DNA of 10,629 nucleotides from Chitinophagaceae bacterium (GTDB lineage: Bacteria; Bacteroidota; Bacteroidia; Chitinophagales; Chitinophagaceae): positions 1 through 10,629 of the forward strand of contig CANCKV010000060.1 of assembly GCA_947378615.1 (NCBI GenBank), read 5' to 3'. Positions 1-9,142 of this stretch are shown here, piece after piece. The position numbers and the translations under genes were made by a program. How positions within the stretch are numbered: the stretch's first letter is position 1; the number at the start of each line of letters is the position of its first letter. The notes beneath the pieces were generated by a model that had not been told where the DNA came from, did not search any database, and was given only the letters and a program-made list of their open reading frames with translations.

Positions 1-205
1 TTTCTTTTTCTTTTATCGCCTTAACAAAATATTTATCAATAGCTGAAATAGAATTTAATTGTTCGATTTCCTGATTTATTAAATCAACTGTCTCTTCTGC
101 CAATTCTTTTACTTCCAAGGCATTTAAAAGTTTGCCAAGTTGTTGGTAATAATTAGATGCTTTTGAGCTTTCTGAAATGTTCTGTCTTGTTATTAGTTTT
201 GTCAT
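1..205 (-). CDS. Unknown helical protein, N-terminal part only (runs off the left edge)
   Basis: An open frame starts with ATG at 205 and stays open to the window edge, giving 68 residues that begin MTKLITRQNISESSKASNYY. The visible part is rich in Lys, Glu, Leu and Ile and looks like amphipathic helix or coiled coil (around KELAEETVDLINQEIEQL). It has no signal peptide or membrane segment. I do not recognise the family. The start is supported by the even codon use and by the A-rich stretch directly upstream on the coding strand, where Bacteroidota translation signals usually lie. The gene begins only 25 bp after the edge of repeat A, so any promoter must lie within that repeat or further upstream. 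The C-terminal part is missing, so total length and function cannot be judged. Confidence 0.7.
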   Translation of the reverse strand, partial: MTKLITRQNISESSKASNYYQQLGKLLNALEVKELAEETVDLINQEIEQLNSISAIDKYFVKAIKEKE

Positions 206-230
206 TTTTTTTATTTGTTTTAAGTTGTTT

Positions 231-360
231 TCTAACGAACGAGTATTTATAATGTATCAAAAAAAGAACGTTCCGCCTGCTGATAAATTGGTAAAAGAAA
301 GCTGAATTGCTGTATTACTTCCTTCTGCAAGAACTTAGCTAAACAATAATATTAGCAGCT
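231..360 (-). repeat. Intergenic palindromic repeat, copy A (diverged, shortened)
   Basis: This is the most diverged member of the A-E family. It keeps the left terminus TCTAACGAACGAG, the motif TTCCGCCTGC (271-280; compare TTCCGTCTGC in copy E), the block around GTAAAAGAAAGCTGAATTGC, the motif ATTACTTCCTTCTGCAAG (314-331) and the right terminus ATTAGCAGC. It lacks the central segment with CCGAAACTACTGC that copies B, D and E share. Its right end overlaps the last codons and stop of the DUF3050 gene. Strand is given in the direction of the genes. Confidence 0.65.
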
Positions 361-1136
361 GTTGATCCTTTCATCATTTGTCTGTACGCTCCATCCCAAA
401 GATTAATACGTTTTTGTAGAGAGACAATAGTTACTTTTTCAGCCTCTTCCCAAAATGTTTGGTTGTCTACACATAGGTTTGATGTCATTTGTAAAGAAAG
501 ATGACTATGGTGGTCCCCGTCAACCTCAATATGTCTATCAAGATAGTATTTGAAAGTTGTAATACTGTCTGGAAAGTTGTTATTAATATCATTGACTATT
601 GATACAAACATTCTTGGAATCAAGTCTTCACGTCCAAATGTGAACATTGCAGATTGTAAATAATCTTTATCACTATCAATTATTTTAAATGTAAATTCAA
701 CAAAGTCCTTTGCTTCAATTGGGGTTTTTGAAATTTCAAAAGCTGAATTGAAATCTCCCGTCCTTTTTAAAACTTCTATGAATGTTTCAATCTGAGAAGT
801 GTCTGCCCCACATTGTTTCATAGCATCAAGGTATATTTCGAAATGGCTTTTCCTAATGCCGCTATTGTCAACATCTGATTCTTCACCAACAACAATTTCA
901 TTTATAAGGTACCGAGTGTCGGCAGAACCTCTTGGAAACCAAGGAATACTTGTACAAGTCAAGTTTTTTTGAAGTGTTTTAAGCAAAGACATAAAGTCCC
1001 ATACAGCATAAACGTGATATTGCATAAAAACTTTCAAGTCGTTTATGTCTTTAATTGCTGAATAAACCTTATGATTAATTATCTGCAGCCTCAGAGGTTC
1101 AATTGTTTTTCTAATTTTTTCTATTTGTTCTGACAT
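339..1136 (-). CDS. DUF3050 family protein (heme-oxygenase-like fold, possible metal-dependent oxidase)
   Basis: The 265-aa cytoplasmic protein has no signal peptide and is mostly helical. I recognise it as DUF3050 from its overall pattern: IEPLR...NHKVY (residues 12-25), the FMQYHVYAVWDFMSLLK helix (37-53), the IPWFPRG turn (64-70) and the C-terminal RHIEVDGDHHSHLSL stretch (201-215). The last stretch holds H202-x3-D206-x2-H209 (also H210, H212). With the acidic residues near E80-E86 and H98/E100, this resembles the metal ligands of heme-oxygenase-like diiron oxidases and PqqC-like proteins. That function is inference; the family is uncharacterised to my knowledge. The ATG at 1136 is followed by a natural N-terminus and preceded by a nested inverted repeat. 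The final residues (AANIIV) and the TAG stop are encoded inside repeat A, so the C-terminal tail may have been altered by repeat insertion or recombination. Confidence 0.88.
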   Translation of the reverse strand: MSEQIEKIRKTIEPLRLQIINHKVYSAIKDINDLKVFMQYHVYAVWDFMSLLKTLQKNLTCTSIPWFPRGSADTRYLINEIVVGEESDVDNSGIRKSHFEIYLDAMKQCGADTSQIETFIEVLKRTGDFNSAFEISKTPIEAKDFVEFTFKIIDSDKDYLQSAMFTFGREDLIPRMFVSIVNDINNNFPDSITTFKYYLDRHIEVDGDHHSHLSLQMTSNLCVDNQTFWEEAEKVTIVSLQKRINLWDGAYRQMMKGSTAANIIV

Positions 1137-1196
1137 TATTGTAAATTATATATCCAAGTAACATTACAATAATGTAAATAGTTTAATTTACAATAA
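1136..1196 (-). promoter_or_regulatory. Nested inverted repeat in front of the DUF3050 gene, possible operator
   Basis: A perfect 13-bp inverted repeat, TTATTGTAAATTA (1136-1148) and TAATTTACAATAA (1184-1196), encloses a second palindrome ACATTA-CAA-TAATGT (1161-1175) almost exactly at its centre. The motif TTGTAA/TTACAA occurs three times with near-symmetric spacing. The outer arm touches the ATG. Two symmetric levels sharing one centre suggest a dimeric or cooperative regulator site, or an RNA stem hiding the start codon. No terminator T-tract is associated with it. Confidence 0.45.
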
Positions 1197-1250
1197 GCAT
1201 TTTGACTATAGATTGCCCTTAGGGACTATAAATTAAAAGTATTGAATGAC

Positions 1251-1430
1251 AGCTAACTAATGAGTGTTTAGGATGGGGCTTGAGAAGAATATTACGTCTG
1301 CCGATGACAATTACTTGGTTCTTGCTCAATTATCTCATAGTTATAGGACTGCCGAAACTACTGCTAAAAGAAAGTACAATTGCTCAATTACTTTCGTCTG
1401 CAAGCCCTTTCCATTAATTTTAGCGGCTGC
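1251..1430 (-). repeat. Intergenic palindromic repeat, copy B
   Basis: This full-length copy runs from AGCTAACTAATGAGTG to TTTTAGCGGCTG. Its core (about 1340-1412) differs from copy E at only about 6 of 84 positions by eye: TATAGGACTGCCGAAAC, TACTGCTAAAAGAAAGTAC, AATTGCTCAATTACTTTC, GTCTGCAAGCCCTTTCC. The ends pair: GGATGGGGCTTG (1271-1282) faces CAAGCCCTTTCC (1401-1412). It lies between the MORN/TPR gene stop (19 bp away) and the DUF3050 start (114 bp away). A 63-codon plus-strand frame crosses it but is not conserved in the other copies. The rest of the 1137-1449 interval holds the DUF3050 upstream region. Confidence 0.85.
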
Positions 1431-1449
1431 TCTTTGTAGGGCAGTAATC

Positions 1450-2448
1450 CTATAATGCCTTTCTAATCGCTTCTGAATCAGCACCTAAGAATACTGCTCT
1501 TTGTAAGTCACTACATATTTTTAAATGTTCATCGTCTGGGATAGCCACTTCTCGCTTTTTTGAATTTGATTTTTTGTATTCACTTTGATATTTCCTAATT
1601 CTAACAAATGCTCTATCAGCAAAAGCATAAGAGCTATCTAACTCAATTACTTTTGAATAATTTTCAATTGCACTTTTATAATCTTTTTTGCAATAACTCA
1701 CGTACCCTTTATGAATATAAGGAAGTATTTTTTCTATTCCTTTATTTGCCGTTACTTTTCCATCTGTAATTTCCTGAACATTAATAACTTTTCCTGATGA
1801 ATAATAATCAGTTAACTCTCCTTGCATTACTCCATTAACATAATTACTTCTTTGGCTAATTTGCACATTTGGACAATATTTAACGCAAATCCCATTTTTC
1901 CTTCCGTTTACAAACTCACATTTTTGTTTTAATGAACCATCTTCATAATACCACAAGTCAAGGCCATTTGCAATTCCATCTTTGTATTCCGACTCAAAAA
2001 GTATTTTACCATTTTGATTATAACGTTTATAATATCCGTTTAATCTACCATTTAAACATATTCTTTCGCTTTGTGTATGTCCGTTTAAATAATAATCTAT
2101 AATACGCCCATTGTAAGGGGAATTATGTAAAAGGAAAGCTCCGCTGATATTTTCCATTTGTGCTGAAGAAGGTATTTGTTTTAAACTGTCTGGTCTATTG
2201 CGATATTCTTTTGTGAAAATATATGTTACTCCATCAAATTTTCTATAGCCTAATAGCTTTAAAGAGTCTTTATTTATTATAACCTTCCTGTCGGCAATGT
2301 CGGATTGAAATATTTCAATATCTTCTTTAGGTTCGTATAAAATAGGAATAGAGTCAATAACATACAACATCTTATGCTTTGAAATCTGTCCAAATAAAGT
2401 GGAGTAAAATGTAATTAGTCCAATGCATAAAAGGTATAGTTTGCTCAT
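1450..2448 (-). CDS. Secreted MORN-repeat (YwqK-like) protein with C-terminal TPR
   Basis: The 332-aa protein begins with a Sec signal peptide (hydrophobic residues 4-19, likely cleavage after TLFG or GQ). It has a poorly recognisable segment to about residue 105, then four or five MORN-2 / YwqK-type repeats at about 112-230, with recurring NG...G.y..Y...G motifs (NGRLNGYYKRYNQNGK, DGIANGLDLWYYEDGS, NGRKNGICVKYC, NGVMQGELTDYYSSGK). A TPR follows at about 243-285 (KGYVSYCKKDYKSAIENY...), and a typical closing TPR helix (CSDLQRAVFLGADSEA, 312-327) comes before the C-terminus. The YwqK family is sometimes annotated as a toxin-antitoxin component, but the evidence for that is weak; an envelope or surface scaffold role is more plausible here. 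It starts 27 bp after the inverted repeat that follows the pectate lyase gene, and its stop lies 19 bp from repeat B. Confidence 0.88.
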   Translation of the reverse strand: MSKLYLLCIGLITFYSTLFGQISKHKMLYVIDSIPILYEPKEDIEIFQSDIADRKVIINKDSLKLLGYRKFDGVTYIFTKEYRNRPDSLKQIPSSAQMENISGAFLLHNSPYNGRIIDYYLNGHTQSERICLNGRLNGYYKRYNQNGKILFESEYKDGIANGLDLWYYEDGSLKQKCEFVNGRKNGICVKYCPNVQISQRSNYVNGVMQGELTDYYSSGKVINVQEITDGKVTANKGIEKILPYIHKGYVSYCKKDYKSAIENYSKVIELDSSYAFADRAFVRIRKYQSEYKKSNSKKREVAIPDDEHLKICSDLQRAVFLGADSEAIRKAL

Positions 2449-2475
2449 AATAGATTGTCTTTTAAAATATCCGCA

Positions 2476-2564
2476 ACGAATGATAGAAAATATTAGTGAC
2501 TATTGACATGATGAAAATTCGCTAATATTTTAAAGTTTGGGGAACTAGTAATAGTATCATTCGT
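2476..2564 (-). repeat. Interrupted inverted repeat after the pectate lyase stop
   Basis: Outer arms ACGAATGATA (2476-2485) and TATCATTCGT (2555-2564) are perfectly complementary. Directly inside the left arm, GAAAATATTAG (2486-2496) pairs with CTAATATTTT (2522-2531). On the right the two arm blocks are separated by 23 nt, so the structure is a stem with one large internal bulge. It begins at the base next to the pectate lyase TAA and occupies nearly the whole gap to the MORN/TPR gene. It shows no similarity to copies A-E but holds the same position relative to its gene. Confidence 0.6.
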
Positions 2565-3923
2565 TTATTTTATACTATTAATGAATTCTTCCAACATTGT
2601 AAATCCACTTTTGGTTACTTTATTTCTATCGTCAGCATTGTTAGGATTTAAACCATTCGCTATTTCCCAAGTGTCGGGCATTCCATCGTGGTCACTGTCT
2701 ATCGCAGCTGTGGTTGATTTTAATAAAGGCCATCCTCCCACAGAACCTACACTATCAATTATACCCCTATTTTTTCCATAAGAATCGCCACTGTTACATT
2801 TCCCAGATTTAATTTGATGTAGAATCCGCTCATCAACAATATCTCTTTTAGGTAGTGTTGCGCCAACATTTTGCAATACCAATAGATAAGCTTCTTTTGC
2901 AGACTGTGTGATAACAGGAGCAAAAGGGAAAGGCATTACCATTCTTACACTATCCGCATTTGCTGCAGGCCCTTGCACCCCTCCTTTCCAATTATCTTCA
3001 GATATTGATGGAGCCCCTTCTATATAATTGCCATTAATATACCATTTACCAGGGTCTGTGCCTTTATTACCAATCTCTACAATCATAAATTCCTTAGATT
3101 CTTTTGTAGCTGGTCCGGATTTAAAGTAATTATTAATCATGTTTTGATGCCCCAATTCTCCGCCATAGGCACTTTTATAACCCCAATTAAAAATTACATT
3201 ATTTCGGAAGTCAACGATTTCTTCGCTTGCTGTTTCGGGATGTTTCCTAGCTCCACTAAAACGAGGGTTACGACTCGTATTATCGGCATATAAGTTATGA
3301 TGAAAGCTTGCACCCATTCCTCCTTGAATGCCACCAAATCCGTGTAGTACACTTTCGCCAGATTTAGTATCTTTTACCCTGCCTGCATTATATAAACTTT
3401 CGCTTAGCATGCACCATTGCATAGTAAAGTTTTTATTGTCGTAAAAAGAACCTACTTCATCTACCGACCAACTCATCGAGCAATGATCAATGATGATATC
3501 TTTTTGTTGTCTGCCTCCAAACGCATCACCTTGACAGCCCTTTTCATTGCCTAATCTAAACCGCAGATAACGTACAATTACATTACTAGCTTGAATTAAA
3601 GTGCTAAAATTAGCCATACAAATTCCATCACCCGGCGCAGTTTGTCCAGCAATTGTCAGGTTACCATTTGTTATTTTGATGTTGGATTGTAAAAAAATAG
3701 TACCTGAAACACGGAAGACAATAGTTCTTGCTCCACTTTTAGAACAAGCTTCTCTAAAACTACCTGCACCAGCATCGTTTAAATTTGTAACCTCAATGAC
3801 TACACCTCCATGGCCACCTGTAGTAAAACGTCCAAATCCTTCAGCACCAGGAAAAGCTATTTGTTGCGAAAATGTATTTGTGGTTATTAAAATTAGCAGT
3901 AAAATCAAAAGTTTTATTGTCAT
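2565..3923 (-). CDS. Secreted pectate lyase, polysaccharide lyase family 1
   Basis: The 452-aa protein cleaves polygalacturonate (pectin) by beta-elimination, with calcium. A signal peptide occupies residues 1-20 (cleavage near TFSQ-Q). The mature N-terminus FPGAEGFGRFTTGGHGG and the GSFREA motif open the right-handed beta-helix typical of PL1. Expected motifs are present: NVIVRYLRFRLG (114-125), DHCSMSWSVDE (146-156) with calcium-type acidic residues, SRNPRFSG (217-224) with the arginines expected for catalysis or substrate binding, and NNVIFNWG (241-248). Near the C-terminus, DSDHDGMPDTWE (409-420) is an EF-hand/thrombospondin-3-like calcium loop common in Bacteroidota pectate lyases. There is no T9SS tail, so Sec export to the periplasm is likely. 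No SusC/SusD or other polysaccharide-utilisation genes adjoin it. The start codon is only 30 bp from repeat C. Confidence 0.93.
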   Translation of the reverse strand: MTIKLLILLLILITTNTFSQQIAFPGAEGFGRFTTGGHGGVVIEVTNLNDAGAGSFREACSKSGARTIVFRVSGTIFLQSNIKITNGNLTIAGQTAPGDGICMANFSTLIQASNVIVRYLRFRLGNEKGCQGDAFGGRQQKDIIIDHCSMSWSVDEVGSFYDNKNFTMQWCMLSESLYNAGRVKDTKSGESVLHGFGGIQGGMGASFHHNLYADNTSRNPRFSGARKHPETASEEIVDFRNNVIFNWGYKSAYGGELGHQNMINNYFKSGPATKESKEFMIVEIGNKGTDPGKWYINGNYIEGAPSISEDNWKGGVQGPAANADSVRMVMPFPFAPVITQSAKEAYLLVLQNVGATLPKRDIVDERILHQIKSGKCNSGDSYGKNRGIIDSVGSVGGWPLLKSTTAAIDSDHDGMPDTWEIANGLNPNNADDRNKVTKSGFTMLEEFINSIK

Positions 3924-3953
3924 ATAAAATTGCTTTGAATTGGTGTTACTCTA

Positions 3954-4112
3954 CAATAACAAATGAGTGATTGTAAAACGGCTTGACAAGAAAGTCCCTT
4001 CTGCCGATTCTAATTACTTAATTCTTACTCCATTGTCCCATAACTGCTAAAAAATGTAGAAATGCTGAATTACTTCCGTCTGCAAGCCCTTTCAAAAACC
4101 CTAATGTTATTG
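3954..4112 (-). repeat. Intergenic palindromic repeat, copy C (with swapped, still complementary ends)
   Basis: The copy has termini CAATAAC (3954-3960) and GTTATTG (4106-4112), which are perfectly complementary although they differ from GCTAAC/GTTAGC in copy E. Further inside, ACGGCTTG (3978-3985) faces CAAGCCCTTT (4083-4092). It retains CTTCTGCCGATTCTAATTAC (compare CGTCTGCCGATGACAATTAC in copy B) and GCTGAATTACTTCCGTCTGC, but has lost part of the middle of the repeat. It fills most of the space upstream of the pectate lyase gene. Confidence 0.8.
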
Positions 4113-4138
4113 CATACCAACATGGTAGAAGAACCACC

Positions 4139-4175
4139 AAAAAAGGAAGTGCAGCTATTATCTAACTGCACCTCC
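4139..4175 (-). terminator. Intrinsic terminator of the T9SS-protein gene
   Basis: On the minus strand the stem GGAGGTGCAG is followed by an 11-nt loop and CTGCACTTCC (9 of 10 pairs plus one G-T wobble), then a TTTTTT tract (4144-4139). It begins 16 bp after the TAG stop of the 651-aa gene, ahead of repeat C. It is the clearest Rho-independent terminator in the window. It implies that the pectate lyase gene needs its own promoter, which must lie in or near repeat C. Confidence 0.8.
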
Positions 4176-4191
4176 ATTTAATCATGTGAAT

Positions 4192-6147
4192 CTATTTGTT
4201 GATGAGTAGTTGCTCATTATAGTTGCCTGTGTCAGTGGTTATTTTAACCACATAAACACCACTTTTCAAAGATTGTGTGTTTAGTTTGTAAGCGCTTGCC
4301 ATCCTTAGAGGTTGTGCAATAACTGCTTTGCCTGTATTGTCGTAAACTGTAATCACTGCCTTCTCAACGGGTTTAGTAAAGCTGATGGTCGCAAAGTCTT
4401 TTGCAGGATTGGGAGAAATAGAAAATTGCTTATCACTAAATGTTAGTAACGAAATATTGCTATAAAATGTCTTTCCGTCATTATCCAATTGCTGTAGGCG
4501 ATAATAAACAGTGCCTATTGTTGTATAGCTATCTTCGAAATGATAGGAAGAACCACCATTGACCACCACTTGCCCTACAGTTGAAAACGTAACTCCATCT
4601 GTACTACGCTGAATATTGAAGACCTTTGTATTTAATGTATTGACAACTTCCCATTGTAAATAAGGCGTCTTGTTATGCCAAGAGGCAGCGAAGGAAGTGA
4701 TTTGTAAAGGCAAGGCTGTTCCTTTATAGTAAGTGGCTTGCCATTTGGTATATACCCTATTATTATAATAAAAAGTAGTGTAAGAATTTGTTAGCTGCAT
4801 CAATGGAAAATGTATTCCATTAGTCATAAACCAATATCCATCCCCGGCTACAGCACAAACGACATTAATATAAGTCGCATTAGGGAGTTTTAATGTCCCA
4901 TAACCTATTCCTCTTATTAATTTATATTTTAATTCACCAACTGTAGTATTGTATTGAATACTATCAATCCTTCCTTTGCCACTGTCAAGCCAACTGTTAT
5001 AATTACTATGCCCAAATACCATATAGGTTTGACCGTAACTCAATGGGTAAATCATTTCTGTACCAGAAGGATTATCTCTCTCGATATGTCTTTTTTTAAT
5101 GGAACTATCATAAGTATAAGTGCCTGCCCAACCAAGTTTGGTCGGTGTCGTTTCTAAATAACTAATGGTCTCAAAGGGGTTGTTACCAACTGCAATATTT
5201 GATGCTGGAAAACTATCCGCCCCTGGTAATCCTTTTGAGGAATAAATTGAAACGAAATTAGCATTGCCACTGTCTTTCATATTGCTGAAGTCCCAAACCT
5301 TGTTTTCACCTTTTAAAAGGGAATCTGTTATGATTGTAGATAGGTATTTAGTATCTTGTATGATAAAATTTTCTCCAACTCGAGGGTTTAATCCAGTATC
5401 GGTGATAATTGGGGCTTTTGTGTCTTTGCTTTTAAGGTATCTTGTGTCCTTCTTATTTAAGGCTACATACAGCAAAGGAAAATGTATTCCATTTGTATGG
5501 AAACTATATCCATCATCCTGTAATACACAAACCACACTATCAAAAGTACCATAAGGCAACTTTAATGTTCCATACCCAATCCCCGTGATAGTATCATGAT
5601 GAGTAGTTGGTGAATTATTGGTACTTGGGAAGGTGTAAAACATATTTTGATGGGTAAAGGTATAAGTTGTTCCAAAAGTCATTGGAAAAGCTGTAAGCGG
5701 ATGCCGAGGGGAATTTGTTTCAACGTTTTGAAGTAGCCCATTGTTAGTACCGCCATCTGTGGTATCTAACTGAAAAGCAGCAAGAGTGCCCCAACCATTA
5801 TTATCTGTTTGGTCAAACTGATATTGACTTTTATACTTTCCAGTTTCTGTATATCCAGAGTTAATCAATACAATATTTGCATTGGGCAAACTATCTGCAA
5901 ATAGAACTCCTTTTGGCGAAACGAATGACATAAATCTAACTGAACCACTATCTACAAGATTGCTAAAGTCCCAAACATTGTTTGCTCCATAGAAGGAGGG
6001 TACAGTTGTTAGTCTTTTAGTACTTTGCCATTGATAATTTTCCCCGATAACAGGGTTACAGCCAACTGCCGTAAGTACTGGTTGTGCATTAGTGGCAATT
6101 CCTCCTAACAATAGGCAGAAAAAGATTCCTTGTAATTTTTTTTTCAT
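4192..6147 (-). CDS. Secreted protein with duplicated unknown module and C-terminal T9SS sorting domain
   Basis: The 651-aa protein has a Sec signal peptide (1-21, MKKK then hydrophobic, cleavage near TNA-Q). Two homologous modules of about 200 residues follow, at about 30-230 and 254-452. Paired motifs show the duplication: NPVIGENYQ against NPRVGENFI, NNVWDFSNLVDSGS against NKVWDFSNMKDSGN, and GIGYGTLKLPYGTFDSVVC against GIGYGTLKLPNATYINVVC, each ending in TNGIHFPL. Residues 478-570 resemble the beta-sandwich linker usual before T9SS tails (LPLQITSFAASW...LQWEV...FNIQRSTDG). The tail at about 575-651 is a type A sorting domain (SISPNPAKD, VYDNTGKAV, LKSGVYVVKI, EQLLINK), directing export across the outer membrane and surface anchoring or release. 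No enzyme motif is visible; adhesion or glycan binding is possible but unproven. A terminator follows the stop. Confidence 0.9.
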   Translation of the reverse strand: MKKKLQGIFFCLLLGGIATNAQPVLTAVGCNPVIGENYQWQSTKRLTTVPSFYGANNVWDFSNLVDSGSVRFMSFVSPKGVLFADSLPNANIVLINSGYTETGKYKSQYQFDQTDNNGWGTLAAFQLDTTDGGTNNGLLQNVETNSPRHPLTAFPMTFGTTYTFTHQNMFYTFPSTNNSPTTHHDTITGIGYGTLKLPYGTFDSVVCVLQDDGYSFHTNGIHFPLLYVALNKKDTRYLKSKDTKAPIITDTGLNPRVGENFIIQDTKYLSTIITDSLLKGENKVWDFSNMKDSGNANFVSIYSSKGLPGADSFPASNIAVGNNPFETISYLETTPTKLGWAGTYTYDSSIKKRHIERDNPSGTEMIYPLSYGQTYMVFGHSNYNSWLDSGKGRIDSIQYNTTVGELKYKLIRGIGYGTLKLPNATYINVVCAVAGDGYWFMTNGIHFPLMQLTNSYTTFYYNNRVYTKWQATYYKGTALPLQITSFAASWHNKTPYLQWEVVNTLNTKVFNIQRSTDGVTFSTVGQVVVNGGSSYHFEDSYTTIGTVYYRLQQLDNDGKTFYSNISLLTFSDKQFSISPNPAKDFATISFTKPVEKAVITVYDNTGKAVIAQPLRMASAYKLNTQSLKSGVYVVKITTDTGNYNEQLLINK

Positions 6148-6210
6148 CTATTATTCAATTTAATTTTTCCTACACTTCAAGATCCGCAGTAGGCATTCGT
6201 AGCTGGTTTT

Positions 6211-6234
6211 AGAAAAGTGGCCGCCACACTTTCT
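6211..6234. promoter_or_regulatory. Small GC-containing hairpin in the leader of the T9SS-protein gene
   Basis: AGAAAAGTG (6211-6219) pairs with CACTTTCT (6227-6234) around a GCCGCCA loop, with one bulged A. It lies about 64-87 bp upstream of the ATG at 6147 and stands out from the surrounding AT-rich DNA. It could form in the leader RNA, but there is no T-tract on the coding strand to make it a clear terminator. The remainder of 6148-6309 shows no gene and no other signal I can defend. Confidence 0.25.
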
Positions 6235-6309
6235 TATTTATAAAATATTTTGTCAAAATTGCAATTTAAATTTTAGTTTTTTAACATCTATGCAATTCTT
6301 GCATTGAAT

Positions 6310-6483
6310 GCTACCAACTAATAAGTGCTTGATAAAAACGTTGAGTATGCCAATAACATTTGATTAATTCTTGCTCTATTATCTCATAGTGATAGGACTG
6401 CCGAAACTACTGCTAAAAGAAAGTAATATTGCTGAATTACTTCTGTCTGAATGCCCTTTTCAAAACACTTTTGTTACCTGCCG
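6310..6483 (-). repeat. Intergenic palindromic repeat, copy D
   Basis: The copy runs from GCTACCAACTAATAAGTG to CACTTTTGTTACCTGCCG. Its core is nearly identical to copies B and E (TTAATTCTTGCTCTATTATC, ATAGTGATAGGACTGCCG, AAACTACTGCTAAAAGAAAG). AAGTGCTTGATAAAAACG near the left end pairs imperfectly with CCTTTTCAAAACACTT near the right end. The repeat abuts the Fic gene: the TAA stop lies at its very edge (6486-6484). The T9SS-protein start is 162 bp away. Confidence 0.85.
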
Positions 6484-7524
6484 TTATATTGTCGAATAGT
6501 TTGTACTTGGCCCAACTCCATTTTTTTCAATTAATTTTTTTTCAATAAGTTCTGATAATAATCGTTTAACAGTAGGATTGGGCACTCCAAGTTTTTTTGA
6601 TATTTCTCCTGATTTGCAACCAACATTATTTTCAATAAAAGTCAAGATTAATTTTTCTCTTTGTGATAATTGAGAAGAAGCATTATTGAAATTTAGTTTA
6701 AGTATTAGTTGCTCTTGAATATTTTTTAATGCGTCAAAATAAAAACTATTCCATTCACTAACATTTTCATTTGGTCTTTGGCTTTGGCAATTTCTTAATA
6801 CGCTGTAATACGCTAGTTTTCTGTTTTCTATTTCGTGTTCAAAACTTACATATTGAATCCAATTATAGCCGTTTTTCAACAATAATAGAGACGATATAAG
6901 CCTACTCAATCTGCCATTTCCATCTTGAAAAGGATGAATGCTTAAAAAATCATAAGTAAACAAAGAGCATTTCACAAGTGGGTGGGTTACATTATCATTT
7001 TTGTACCAATTCACAAGATTTCTCATTGCGTTTTCTGTAGCAATACCTGCTTCTGTTGTTTCAAAAATTATTTGCTTTGTACCATCTCCAAAATTCGCTT
7101 CAACTGCATTACTATGTTGTTTATAATCTCCTTTGTGCCATTCGTCTTTTTTGCTAAACTTCATTAAAATGTTATGCAAATTTTTGAGGCTACTTTCAGT
7201 TATTTCGATATCTAAAAATGATTCTGATATGATGTCTAACGTATTAAAATAGCCAACTACTTCCTGCGAATCTCTATCTTCAAGTTTCGTTATATCTATT
7301 TTTTGAAGTAGAACATTCACTTCTTCATCACTCATTTTTGAACCTTCAATTCGCGTGGATGCACCTACACTTCTAACTGTCGCAATAGATTTTAATTGTT
7401 TTAAACTTTGTCCTTCCTTTTTTTCAATTGTTGCCCAAGAAGCATCAAATCTGTCAATTTGGCTAATTATTGAAATCAGTTTCCAATCTATGTCAACTTT
7501 AAGGTTGTAAACAACATTTTCCAT
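6484..7524 (-). CDS. Fic-domain protein (class II, N-terminal inhibitory motif) with C-terminal winged helix
   Basis: The 346-aa cytoplasmic protein is predicted to transfer AMP (or another nucleotide moiety) from NTP to a hydroxyl side chain of a target protein. The Fic active-site loop HPFQDGNGRLSR (197-208) is intact, with catalytic H197 and the phosphate-binding GNGR. The autoinhibitory helix motif [S/T]xxxE[G/N] is present upstream as S56-T-R-I-E60-G61, placing it in the class with an N-terminal inhibitory helix, so no separate antitoxin is needed. Residues about 286-345 form a winged helix-turn-helix (LSQREKLILTFI..., SGEISKKLGVPNPTVKRLLS), as in many bacterial Fic/DUF4172-like regulators, suggesting DNA binding and possible self-regulation. 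Length is normal for this architecture. The stop lies at the edge of repeat D; repeat E lies 176 bp upstream. Confidence 0.93.
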   Translation of the reverse strand: MENVVYNLKVDIDWKLISIISQIDRFDASWATIEKKEGQSLKQLKSIATVRSVGASTRIEGSKMSDEEVNVLLQKIDITKLEDRDSQEVVGYFNTLDIISESFLDIEITESSLKNLHNILMKFSKKDEWHKGDYKQHSNAVEANFGDGTKQIIFETTEAGIATENAMRNLVNWYKNDNVTHPLVKCSLFTYDFLSIHPFQDGNGRLSRLISSLLLLKNGYNWIQYVSFEHEIENRKLAYYSVLRNCQSQRPNENVSEWNSFYFDALKNIQEQLILKLNFNNASSQLSQREKLILTFIENNVGCKSGEISKKLGVPNPTVKRLLSELIEKKLIEKNGVGPSTNYSTI

Positions 7525-7528
7525 TTTT

Positions 7529-7536
7529 CAAATATA
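7529..7536 (-). promoter_or_regulatory. Candidate Bacteroidota -7 promoter box for the Fic gene
   Basis: On the minus strand TATATTTG matches the Bacteroidota -7 consensus TAnnTTTG exactly. It ends only 4 nt before the ATG at 7524, which would give an almost leaderless transcript or imply a later start codon. I see no well-spaced -33 TTTG, so this is a weak call. Confidence 0.3.
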
Positions 7537-7553
7537 GGAACATTTGTCAAAAT

Positions 7554-7581
7554 GATACGATACGATACGAATTTGTACGAT
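7554..7581. repeat. GATAC direct repeats upstream of the Fic gene, possible operator
   Basis: GATAC occurs three times head to tail (7554-7568), followed by TACGAT at 7576-7581, all within 60 bp of the Fic start codon and next to the candidate promoter box. Short tandem pentamers at this position could bind the winged helix of the Fic protein itself. That link is inference. The rest of the gap to repeat E (7582-7700) holds a weak imperfect hairpin, ACCATAACG (7650-7658) with CGTTTTTATGGT (7677-7688), and nothing else I can name. Confidence 0.3.
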
Positions 7582-7700
7582 AGTGATTCGATAATTATGA
7601 CTAACGTACATTTTACGGTTAAAAATTATTTGTATTTTCTCTTTCTAAAACCATAACGTTTGCTCAAAAACTCAACCGTTTTTATGGTAGGGGGATGGTA

Positions 7701-7879
7701 GCTAACGAATGAATGTTTTGGAAGGTGCTTGACAAGAATGTTCCGTCTGCCAATAACAATTGATTAATTCTTGCTCGATTATCTCCTAGTGATAGGACTA
7801 CCGAAACTACTGCTAAAAGAAAGTACAATTGCTCAATTACTTCCGCCTGCAAGTCCTTTCCTAAACACTAGATGTTAGC
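7701..7879 (-). repeat. Intergenic palindromic repeat, copy E (best-preserved palindrome)
   Basis: This copy is the clearest palindrome. Termini GCTAAC (7701-7706) and GTTAGC (7874-7879) are complementary; TGTTTTGGAAGGTGCTTG (7714-7731) pairs with CAAGTCCTTTCCTAAACA (7851-7868) with few mismatches. Further in, CAATTG (7759-7764) faces CAATTG (7825-7830), and TCCTAGTGATAGGA (7785-7798) can form a small apical hairpin. The whole element can therefore fold into one long, bulged hairpin. It starts 28 bp after the YiiX-like gene stop. Confidence 0.85.
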
Positions 7880-7907
7880 GGCATGCATTAGTCTTCGCTT
7901 TCTATTA

Positions 7908-8588
7908 TCAGTTAGATATTACGGTCTTCAATAGTTCACAATTGTAAATACTTGCAGGTGAAATTACGACCTCTTCTAATGGAATCTTTTCGCCATAGCG
8001 TTCTTTCATCTTTGATTTAACTGCCTCACTCGTTAAATCAAAGTCTTTTAGCTTTTGTAGATTTCCAACTTCAAGTCCTGTTGCCTCTTTATAAACTTTC
8101 CAAATTAGCTCTGAACAATATATTCTGTCATCCGTCCATTCAAAGTATGTGTCGTAATGCTTATTCTTGAACCTGTCTTCACTAATTTTCATTTTGTTAA
8201 GTGTGGGAATTGTCAAAACCTTGTCTGCATCTAATAAGCGTTTAGTCACAAAATGTCCGTCTTGTCCACGAGCAATCCATTTATTTAATGGTGTCATCTT
8301 TATTGGTTCTACAGCCTCAAAAACAAAATAATCATTACCGATTTTATGAATTAACCCACAATGACTAAACTCTGAATGAGTAGCTATTTGAATTGCTTTA
8401 CTTTGTCTTGAAAGTGAAGTCTGAAAAATAATGTCACCTTCTTTTAATTCATCATTATCTATAAGCTTTGAAAGTTGTTTGTCTACCAACGCAAGTTTGT
8501 GATTTGGGTCGTAAAGTCTTCGTTTTACGTAAATACCAACTAATCCCAATGTTACTAAAACTATGATAAATATTATTATCCTTTTCAT
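7908..8588 (-). CDS. YiiX/YebB-like permuted papain-fold amidase, membrane-anchored
   Basis: The 226-aa protein belongs to the permuted NlpC/P60 (YiiX/YaeF) group of papain-fold hydrolases, which act on amide or ester bonds in peptidoglycan, lipids or other substrates. Residues 4-20 form one N-terminal membrane segment or uncleaved signal, so the domain lies outside the cytoplasmic membrane. Family motifs in permuted order are LKEGDIIFQTS (49-58), the catalytic-histidine motif SHCGL (H76), FEAV with E91, and the catalytic-cysteine motif YCSEL (C158) in IYCSELIWKVYKEATG. Length fits the family. The natural substrate cannot be told from the sequence. The ATG lies 10 nt after the stop of a 36-aa small ORF, so the two may be co-transcribed; repeat E follows the TGA stop. 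Confidence 0.88.
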   Translation of the reverse strand: MKRIIIFIIVLVTLGLVGIYVKRRLYDPNHKLALVDKQLSKLIDNDELKEGDIIFQTSLSRQSKAIQIATHSEFSHCGLIHKIGNDYFVFEAVEPIKMTPLNKWIARGQDGHFVTKRLLDADKVLTIPTLNKMKISEDRFKNKHYDTYFEWTDDRIYCSELIWKVYKEATGLEVGNLQKLKDFDLTSEAVKSKMKERYGEKIPLEEVVISPASIYNCELLKTVISN

Positions 8589-8598
8589 GCTTTTAGGT

Positions 8599-8709
8599 TT
8601 ACGCTTTGCTTGCCGCTAACTCTTCAATAGTTACAGTTTTTAAATAATCATCAAATCTTTCATATCCAATTCCCGCACCGTTTGGTAGCGAATGTAAAAG
8701 ATTTTTCAT
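8599..8709 (-). CDS. Small ORF of 36 aa directly upstream of the YiiX-like gene
   Basis: ATG at 8709 opens a 36-residue frame, beginning MKNLLHSLPNGAGIGYERF and ending in TIEELAASKA, that stops at 8599, 10 nt before the YiiX-like ATG. The composition looks protein-like and the spacing suggests translational coupling. The frame remains open upstream for about 15 more codons, so this could also be the C-terminal remnant of a longer, broken gene. The codons for EELAAS contain GTTAGCGGCAAGC, matching the right terminus of repeat E (GTTAGCGGCATGC) at 12 of 13 positions. I do not recognise a family. Confidence 0.4.
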   Translation of the reverse strand: MKNLLHSLPNGAGIGYERFDDYLKTVTIEELAASKA

Positions 8710-9040: not shown

Positions 9041-9142
9041 GAGTGCATAAAAGTTTTTCGCTTAATGAGTTTCGTGAAGACACGAACCTCGGCTGTCTGC
9101 CGCACGGCGTGTCCTCACGCAGCGAAAAACTTTTATGCACCC
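9041..9142. mobile_element. MITE-like hairpin element with 8-bp flanking direct repeats
   Basis: A perfect 20-bp inverted repeat (9043-9062 and 9121-9140; arm ends GTGCATAAAAG / CTTTTATGCAC) encloses a second one, CGTGAAGACACG (9073-9084) with CGTGTCCTCACG (9108-9119; 11 of 12), and an apical CGGC-TGTCT-GCCG (9090-9102). AACTCTTC occurs on both sides (9033-9040 and 9143-9150), 2 bp outside the arms, as expected for a target-site duplication. The interior is much richer in G+C than its surroundings. It has no room for a transposase. It lies about 47 bp after the stop of the 318-aa gene and could also act as a terminator-like stem. The remaining interval (8710-9032) shows no credible gene. Confidence 0.6.

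Follow-up and report, generated by a model that had tools for sequence, protein, structure and literature searches.

Palindromic repeats on a Chitinophagaceae contig as probable attC-like sites of an integron-like Bacteroidota system with a non-IntI integrase

The closest described systems to the element treated here are integrons (IntI/attI/attC), in which an integrase heads a one-strand tandem array of cassettes, mostly with one open reading frame (ORF) each, behind an attI site and separated by imperfect palindromes with AAC...GTT ends, the attC sites. Their canonical core is GTTRRRY, their integrase usually reads opposite to the cassettes, and the Vibrio superintegron repeats (VCR) form large one-strand arrays. 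The Xer modules of Acinetobacter have short dif-like sites and, to our knowledge, neither a long palindrome nor a dedicated recombinase. PMC2674596 defines an integron cassette unit as beginning at the T of a core and ending at the G of the following core, and in PMC7399989 Acinetobacter genes are considered to be mobile as modules with Xer sites at both ends. According to PMC7790495, integron integrases depend on the I2 helix, said to be absent from other proteins, which is the basis of single-strand recombination and whose deletion causes complete loss of function. Here we analyze 10,629 nucleotides from a Chitinophagaceae bacterium (contig CANCKV010000060.1 of assembly GCA_947378615.1, hereafter the window), i.e., contig C60 in its full length, from a fragmented genome of 67.7% completeness (G, C and L numbers denote genomes, contigs and loci). 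Its five palindromes, A-E, are very probably attC-like sites of an integron-like Bacteroidota system with a non-IntI integrase, the window being a decayed part of an array.

A sequence-only reading of the window had located five related palindromes and proposed an integron-like cassette array built on a new repeat family. All five lie where it placed them and read on the minus strand from an AAC-like end to a GTT end:

234..353, minus strand: site A, attC-like, 120 nt; 5' AAC reads AAT; overlaps the end of the DUF3050 gene
1255..1421, minus strand: site B, attC-like; 5' AAC reads AAA
3958..4108, minus strand: site C, attC-like; TGTT end; 3' of the gene for a protein sorted by the type IX secretion system (T9SS)
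6316..6475, minus strand: site D, attC-like; AGTT end; 3' of the Fic gene
7704..7876, minus strand: site E, attC-like, the best preserved copy; intact CTAAC...CGTTAG ends; 3' of the C92-peptidase gene

Their relatedness is borne out by pairwise identity, column identity and BLAST and profile matches: B, D and E are direct repeats (70-86% identity over 167 nt), the other pairings share 60-81% over 75-86 nt, and mean column identity over all five is 72%. BLAST of E against its own genome returns B (1.8e-51), D (1.2e-43) and C (7.4e-16); site A is missing from this list, and a profile search detects its two halves at 4e-12 and 1.5e-05. The CTAAC...GTTAG ends ascribed to the whole family are intact in E, the other copies being altered at one or both ends (5' ends CTAAT in A, CTAAA in B, ATAAC in C and GTAAC in D; 3' ends GTTAG in A, B and E, GTTAT in C and GTTGG in D). 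With E as query, the own genome holds 24 places at E ≤ 1, clustered on C60, C161, C336, C242 and C25 and otherwise single on short contigs. The repeat matches 10 of 59 genomes at E ≤ 0.01 (its own included), all of the window's genus, which is represented by 13 genomes; no match at that threshold occurs in the 46 genomes outside the genus, nor any at E 1e-5 in plasmid and phage collections. The comparison with relatives called for by the sequence-only reading revealed one-strand arrays of the same repeat in genus genomes: seven plus-strand copies on G004:C225, ten minus-strand copies (some partial) on G007:C98 and five plus-strand copies on G006:C126.

A tyrosine recombinase or IntI had been expected at the end of such arrays; the former does head several of them, and it is Xer-like, not IntI. 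No protein exceeds the cut-off of the IntI model in the 13 genus genomes or in 117 family genomes, and the partial matches to that model in the genus are the ~415-aa protein heading the arrays, from a family of ~400 aa. On G006:C126 the order is ssb (297-641), recombinase (658-1914) and first repeat (2914), and on G007:C98 the recombinase lies directly upstream of the array on the same strand. Pfam recognizes Phage_integrase and SAM-like domains, the N-terminal 140-150 residues having no match. Two recombinases scanned fall below the cut-offs of the XerA, IntI, XerC and XerD models: TIGR02249 (IntI) gives 163 and 172 bits against 265, the closest models are NF040815 (189.5 bits against 220) and TIGR02224 (156.5 against 335), and the XerC/XerD equivalog cut-offs are missed at 156.5/335 and 154.5/330 bits. 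The closest solved structure is 4a8e, a XerC-like protein. One recombinase aligned to IntI4 (PDB 2a3v) covers residues 14-180 and 247-319, with 26 residues facing 66 (181-246), i.e., it is ~40 residues shorter where IntI4 stays unaligned, a segment that we take to be the place of the extra (I2) domain of IntI. The R, K, H-x-x-R, H and Y columns, presumably the catalytic residues, are invariant in 17 recombinases (L159, with stop codons in its match, was excluded).

In a midpoint-rooted tree, the array recombinases stand apart from the genus's Xer-like rows, and the 17 array-marked rows do not form one clade (7 changes), the mark covering these aligned rows only and the remaining rows being unscored; several long branches leave the deep order unsure. 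The tree includes no known IntI row, and kinship to IntI is therefore read from model scores and one PDB alignment. The protein thus resembles XerA/XerC/XerD in model scores and best structure, and departs from them in its unmatched N-terminal region, its association with arrays and its separate place in the tree. The system is not classed as an IntI integron because its integrase, differing from IntI in score and in the unaligned segment, does not show the feature by which that family is defined.

A scan of GTDB contigs yielded 67 loci, mostly labelled Chitinophagaceae or Chitinophagales and some only Bacteroidota or Sphingobacteriales, with isolates of Ginsengibacter, Terrimonas, Agriterribacter, Flavisolibacter, Flavihumibacter and Niastella; dropping L160-L162 (weak or partial) left 64 named loci. 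A first inspection of the 34 of the 67 with more downstream DNA showed clear ~200-nt repeats downstream of the recombinase in ~11. Their sequence is array-specific and their anatomy is shared: GCNNNNAACA is separated by 3-4 unpaired nt from a stem (GGTTTGC, for example), and after a long middle the stem complement is separated by 3-4 nt from CGTTNNNNGC. The unpaired spacer between core and inner stem and the AAC...GTT ends are shared with integrons. A scanner that asked for AACA...CGTT or CGTA ends, pairing arms and a length of 176-204 nt detected 70 sites on the array strand downstream of the recombinase, against 2 on the other strand. The 70 sites come from 26 of the 64 loci, all of which belong to the 38 whose downstream DNA reaches at least 1 kb; 508 kb upstream gave 5 and 4 on the two strands. 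By size, 31 named loci carry 56 sites of 185-194 nt on the array strand against 0, and 8 of 120-129 nt against 0.

The outer stem of these sites comprises 17 pairs, 15 of which changed on both sides in an alignment of 42 of the sites found, i.e., an imperfect palindrome conserved in structure over sequence, as attC is. Paired cells amount to 88.5% (60.9% shuffled) and covariation to 0.622 (0.185 shuffled, sd 0.016; slid versions ≤0.117), on rows that the scanner had preselected for arm pairing, a bias left in by the controls. That pairing is kept by compensating changes while the sequence is little conserved is consistent with the sites being recognized as a folded strand.

The region between the recombinase and the first detected site was searched for a start, GTT or GTA, followed by 6 nt complementary to the 5' flank of that site. 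A perfect (6/6) attI-type start is present in 21 of 26 arrays, against 9 of 642 when flanks of other arrays serve as queries. Among 20 aligned starts (omitting the six ambiguous arrays L117, L125, L131, L137, L155 and L159, and with L103 entered by its second-best start), 15 lie 126-231 nt after the recombinase match (range 126-1198), and the motif is CRTAWATTTANGN directly before GTT, with C at -13 and A at -8 in 20/20, T at -7 in 18 and A at -10 in 17. Among 35 further loci, including those omitted from the alignment, 14 show a looser motif within 700 nt, in several cases followed by the typical core. These starts point to an attI-like site beside the recombinase.

Two alternative accounts of the recombinase bear on these data. 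In the first, the arrays are the work of an IntI, whether canonical or diverged, located elsewhere or present formerly, and the Xer-like neighbor is incidental. The architecture is indeed that of an integron, Vibrio attC sites (VCR) are mostly 126-129 bp (PMC2674596), near the 120-128-nt class found here (a likeness of size, with a different integrase), and one complete integron is reported in Salinibacter ruber M1 (PMC9024848). However, the lack of any IntI match over cut-off in the genus and family genomes, the sites downstream of the neighboring recombinase in 26 of 64 loci and the attI-like motif after it make an ordinary integron very unlikely. The second account invokes Xer/dif-type modules, with double-stranded exchange at short core sites and a long hairpin serving another purpose; XerA/XerC/XerD and IntI are the closest recombinase models, no cut-off being reached, and several attI-like sites carry AAC ~13-15 nt before GTT. 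Two narrow length classes and co-varying arms would be needless for a short double-strand site, and we consider this account unlikely; it overlaps with an attC-like reading except for the folded-strand step, and the two are not mutually exclusive.

Three side observations concern the recombinase locus. ssb was rejected as an obligatory partner, lying ≤250 nt upstream of the recombinase in 11 of the 64 loci, seven of them in the window's genus; it is directly upstream at L081:297-641, L080:2954-3298, L089:6031-6366 and L091:9247-9591 (the window's genus and a few others), and is a possible partner for single-strand sites. A 698-bp segment at the recombinase 3' part is 100% identical between G007 (L085:19303-20000) and G001 (L091:10475-11172), neighboring DNA being ~89% identical. 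Plasmid records H8 and H9 show that the public annotation of such Bacteroidota genes is 'site-specific tyrosine recombinase/integron integrase', apparently after the name of NF040815.

For circular cassettes, complementarity is expected between the two ends of a unit, and not between a start and its own repeat. Comparing the 6 nt after the GTT of one site with the 6 nt before the AAC of the next (25 array loci, four without site), 45 of 72 adjacent pairs are perfectly complementary (6/6) and 53 of 72 reach at least 5/6, against 22/420 and 57/420 for other pairs within an array and 4/93 and 12/93 for self pairs; in L114, 10/10 adjacent pairs score 5 or 6. Many of the failures sit, in our reading, beside missed or doubtful sites. 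The 53 closed cassettes (ends at least 5/6 complementary) contain 67 ORFs, counted from 60 aa, 66 of them on the array strand; the median unit is 932 bp, 43 hold one ORF and one holds none. A typical cassette reads TTRNNGC...one ORF...GCNNYAAC, followed by a palindromic site ending in CG. Four of ten cassette proteins tested have no Pfam match, the others including TIR-TPR, esterase/hydrolase, MerT-HMA and CAAX-protease families. As in integrons, the unit begins with the T of a core and ends with the G of the following one, with a junction at G^TT located within a few shared nt; unlike in IntI integrons, the usual core is GTTRNNGC (GTT and AAC are kept, GTTRRRY / RYYYAAC is not), the integrase reads in the cassette direction and sites reach ~195 nt.

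Two breakpoints fall at the CGTT end of a repeat. L077 (G004) and L087 (G008) share 98.4% identity along 304 nt, which falls to 26% in the following 120 nt, the switch lying at the CGT of the repeat end, and L081 and L082, on two contigs of G006, are identical at 126/126 nt from GTT on, the repeats before being only 64% alike.

These data also bear on two accounts that dispense with cassettes. The sequence-only reading had allowed for a foldback transposon, miniature inverted-repeat transposable element (MITE) or repetitive extragenic palindrome (REP) family, and a MITE/REP or insertion sequence-derived family inserting at gene ends would explain palindromes interspersed between genes in many copies per genome, several of them single on short contigs. 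Yet the copies keep one strand, rather than being dispersed in both orientations, the complementarity is between neighboring copies and not within a copy, the breakpoints at the CGTT end join different flanking repeats, and the tandem one-ORF units and the link to a recombinase fit cassettes instead; we regard this account as extremely unlikely. Hairpins 3' of genes on the coding strand with co-varying stems would equally suit regulatory or terminator RNA repeats at 3' ends. This would leave unexplained the pairing of a copy's 5' flank with the 3' flank of the preceding copy, the recombinase and the attI-like site, and an Rfam scan of seven array loci gave 0 matches at gathering score; the palindromes may have a secondary RNA role, an RNA function as their main explanation being exceedingly improbable.

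The best reading of the wider distribution is that the system is present in several Bacteroidota families. Counting only matches at E ≤ 1e-60, the recombinase profile hits 92 of 296 Bacteroidota genomes and 62 of 140 genera. Twenty stretches of ≤20 kb after such genes (19 genomes; two stretches <1.4 kb) were examined, and 15 carry at least one site of 118-130 or 180-196 nt. Array strand and other strand hold 31 vs 0 sites of 120-128 nt, 8 vs 1 of 184-195 nt and 19 vs 8 of other lengths, i.e., 39 class-size sites (120-128 and 184-195 nt) against 1 in 333 kb, and 20 control stretches from 14 genomes (13 of the 19, plus G007; 398 kb) hold 3 on both strands together. In this second closure set, 11/24 adjacent pairs are perfect, against 1/50 other and 0/39 self pairs. 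Farther out, 20-40 kb downstream, four of 12 stretches have array-strand sites (G241 six, G112 four, G253 one and G063 one), and two have a single site on the other strand.

Two of these loci deserve separate mention. L209 and other arrays show two size classes, ~124 and ~188 nt, and in L209 a 189-nt site is followed by a 124-nt site with perfect closure, which suggests that one recombinase may use both. In L211 (G304), ~15 copies of another repeat, mostly 190-280 nt, follow a family recombinase at 1416-17640, without class-size sites.

The proposed integron-like platform consists of a ~400-aa Xer-type tyrosine recombinase with an extra N-terminal region, then an attI-like site, then tandem same-strand cassettes. 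The recombinase would cut at G^TT, and circular cassettes would be excised and then inserted by it at attI and at the sites. It probably recognizes a site as a folded single strand, because the arms keep pairing as the sequence changes, and the N-terminal region is a candidate means of working without the I2 helix of IntI. As far as sequence can show, the system works like an integron. The broader proposition, that Bacteroidota own integrons in which a Xer-type recombinase without I2, probably via its own N-terminal region, recombines folded palindromic cassette sites, we hold with a confidence only slightly better than even; the system is possibly an independent invention. No description of a non-IntI integron in Bacteroidota appeared in the literature searched (preprints and most subscription papers lay outside), including PMC8618304, PMC9668308, PMC8138268 and PMC2727003.

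Besides the preselection of the covariation rows, several points weigh against this interpretation. Recombination is inferred here from sequence and historical breakpoints only, and the letters at the switch points are common to the repeats in both breakpoints, which locates the cut within a few nt only. Twelve of the 38 loci with at least 1 kb downstream gave no 176-204-nt site, and the site-free loci include L102, L141, L149 and L157 with 4.9-8.9 kb downstream, so not every family recombinase heads an array visible to the scanner; among the 20 stretches beyond, five lack a site (L211, L214, L218 and the two <1.4 kb). The best attI-type starts of L103, L117 and L131 coincide, or may coincide, with ends of undetected sites. 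Finally, an integrase adjoins the array in named relatives but not on the window's own contig, as the sequence-only reading had noted, the own genome giving weaker matches only (best 1.1e-28), and only one of the five window units closes perfectly.

The window is a worn, decayed stretch of array without integrase. All eight ORFs taken as genes lie on the minus strand, in keeping with the claim that its genes share a strand, and plus-strand ORFs are ≤108 aa; the array therefore reads minus, with each palindrome 3' of a gene. Units A, C, D and E hold one gene each, and the B-C interval has two. The units are:

1..248, minus strand: start of the unit after A; 82.7% identical to G008:C145 (L088:8785-9033), there after another repeat copy
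236..1256, minus strand: unit A, DUF3050 gene and site A; end complementarity 4/6
1257..3959, minus strand: unit B, genes 2565-3923 and 1450-2448 and site B; ends not complementary, 2/6; palindrome 2475-2565 between the genes
3960..6317, minus strand: unit C, gene for the T9SS-sorted protein and site C; ends not complementary, 1/6
6318..7705, minus strand: unit D, Fic gene and site D; end complementarity 4/6
7706..8619, minus strand: cassette E, start in GTTAGCGGCA (8620-8611), Peptidase_C92 gene, end in TGCCGCTAAC and site E

The genes within them are:

339..1136, minus strand: 265-aa DUF3050 protein
1450..2448, minus strand: 332-aa MORN/TPR protein
2565..3923, minus strand: 452-aa protein without Pfam match
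4192..6147, minus strand: 651-aa protein with a Por secretion (T9SS) sorting tail
6484..7524, minus strand: 346-aa Fic protein with winged helix; matches the PADLOC SoFic anti-phage model (E 5e-42)
7908..8588, minus strand: 226-aa Peptidase_C92 (YaeF/YiiX-like) protein

The ends of cassette E are complementary at 6/6, and GTTAGCGGCA and TGCCGCTAAC pair over 10 nt. Its start, 8618-8620, was not listed in the sequence-only reading; no recognized repeat precedes it, and the preceding 13 nt share part of the attI motif, by eye, from which cassette E may have been inserted at a secondary site.

Further features of the window stand apart from the array. The 91-nt palindrome at 2475-2565, with AAC...CGTT ends, differs from A-E and is perhaps a short or other site type, its flanks showing no closure. 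Another palindrome unlike the five, at 9043-9140, has 27-nt arms and a 44-nt loop and is a possible terminator or other repeat. At the contig end (10346-10629), 82-nt units form a foldback with inverted copies (79-nt arms, 90%), which appears to be an end effect of the assembly; the miRNA matches that Rfam gives there score below gathering score, as do all matches in the Rfam scan of the window. Positions 2280-6930 (4651 bp) are 99.9% identical to the whole contig G006:C173 (L083) from the genome of another species, through either bin mixing or very recent transfer.

If the broader proposition is true, the capture of cassettes by folded strands would have evolved on two or more occasions or else have predated the acquisition of I2 by IntI, and it would extend over many families of a phylum for which a survey with the standard integron tool had reported very little. 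An additional type of integrase, with attI and attC sites of its own, would allow a direct test of whether I2 is required. The arrays may explain assembly breaks after the recombinase, 21 of the 64 named loci ending ≤310 nt from the recombinase match, some inside that gene. Such arrays could explain how accessory genes turn over in these bacteria, and they would contribute cassette pools missed by current annotation, with Fic/SoFic, TIR, MerT, esterases and many unknowns.

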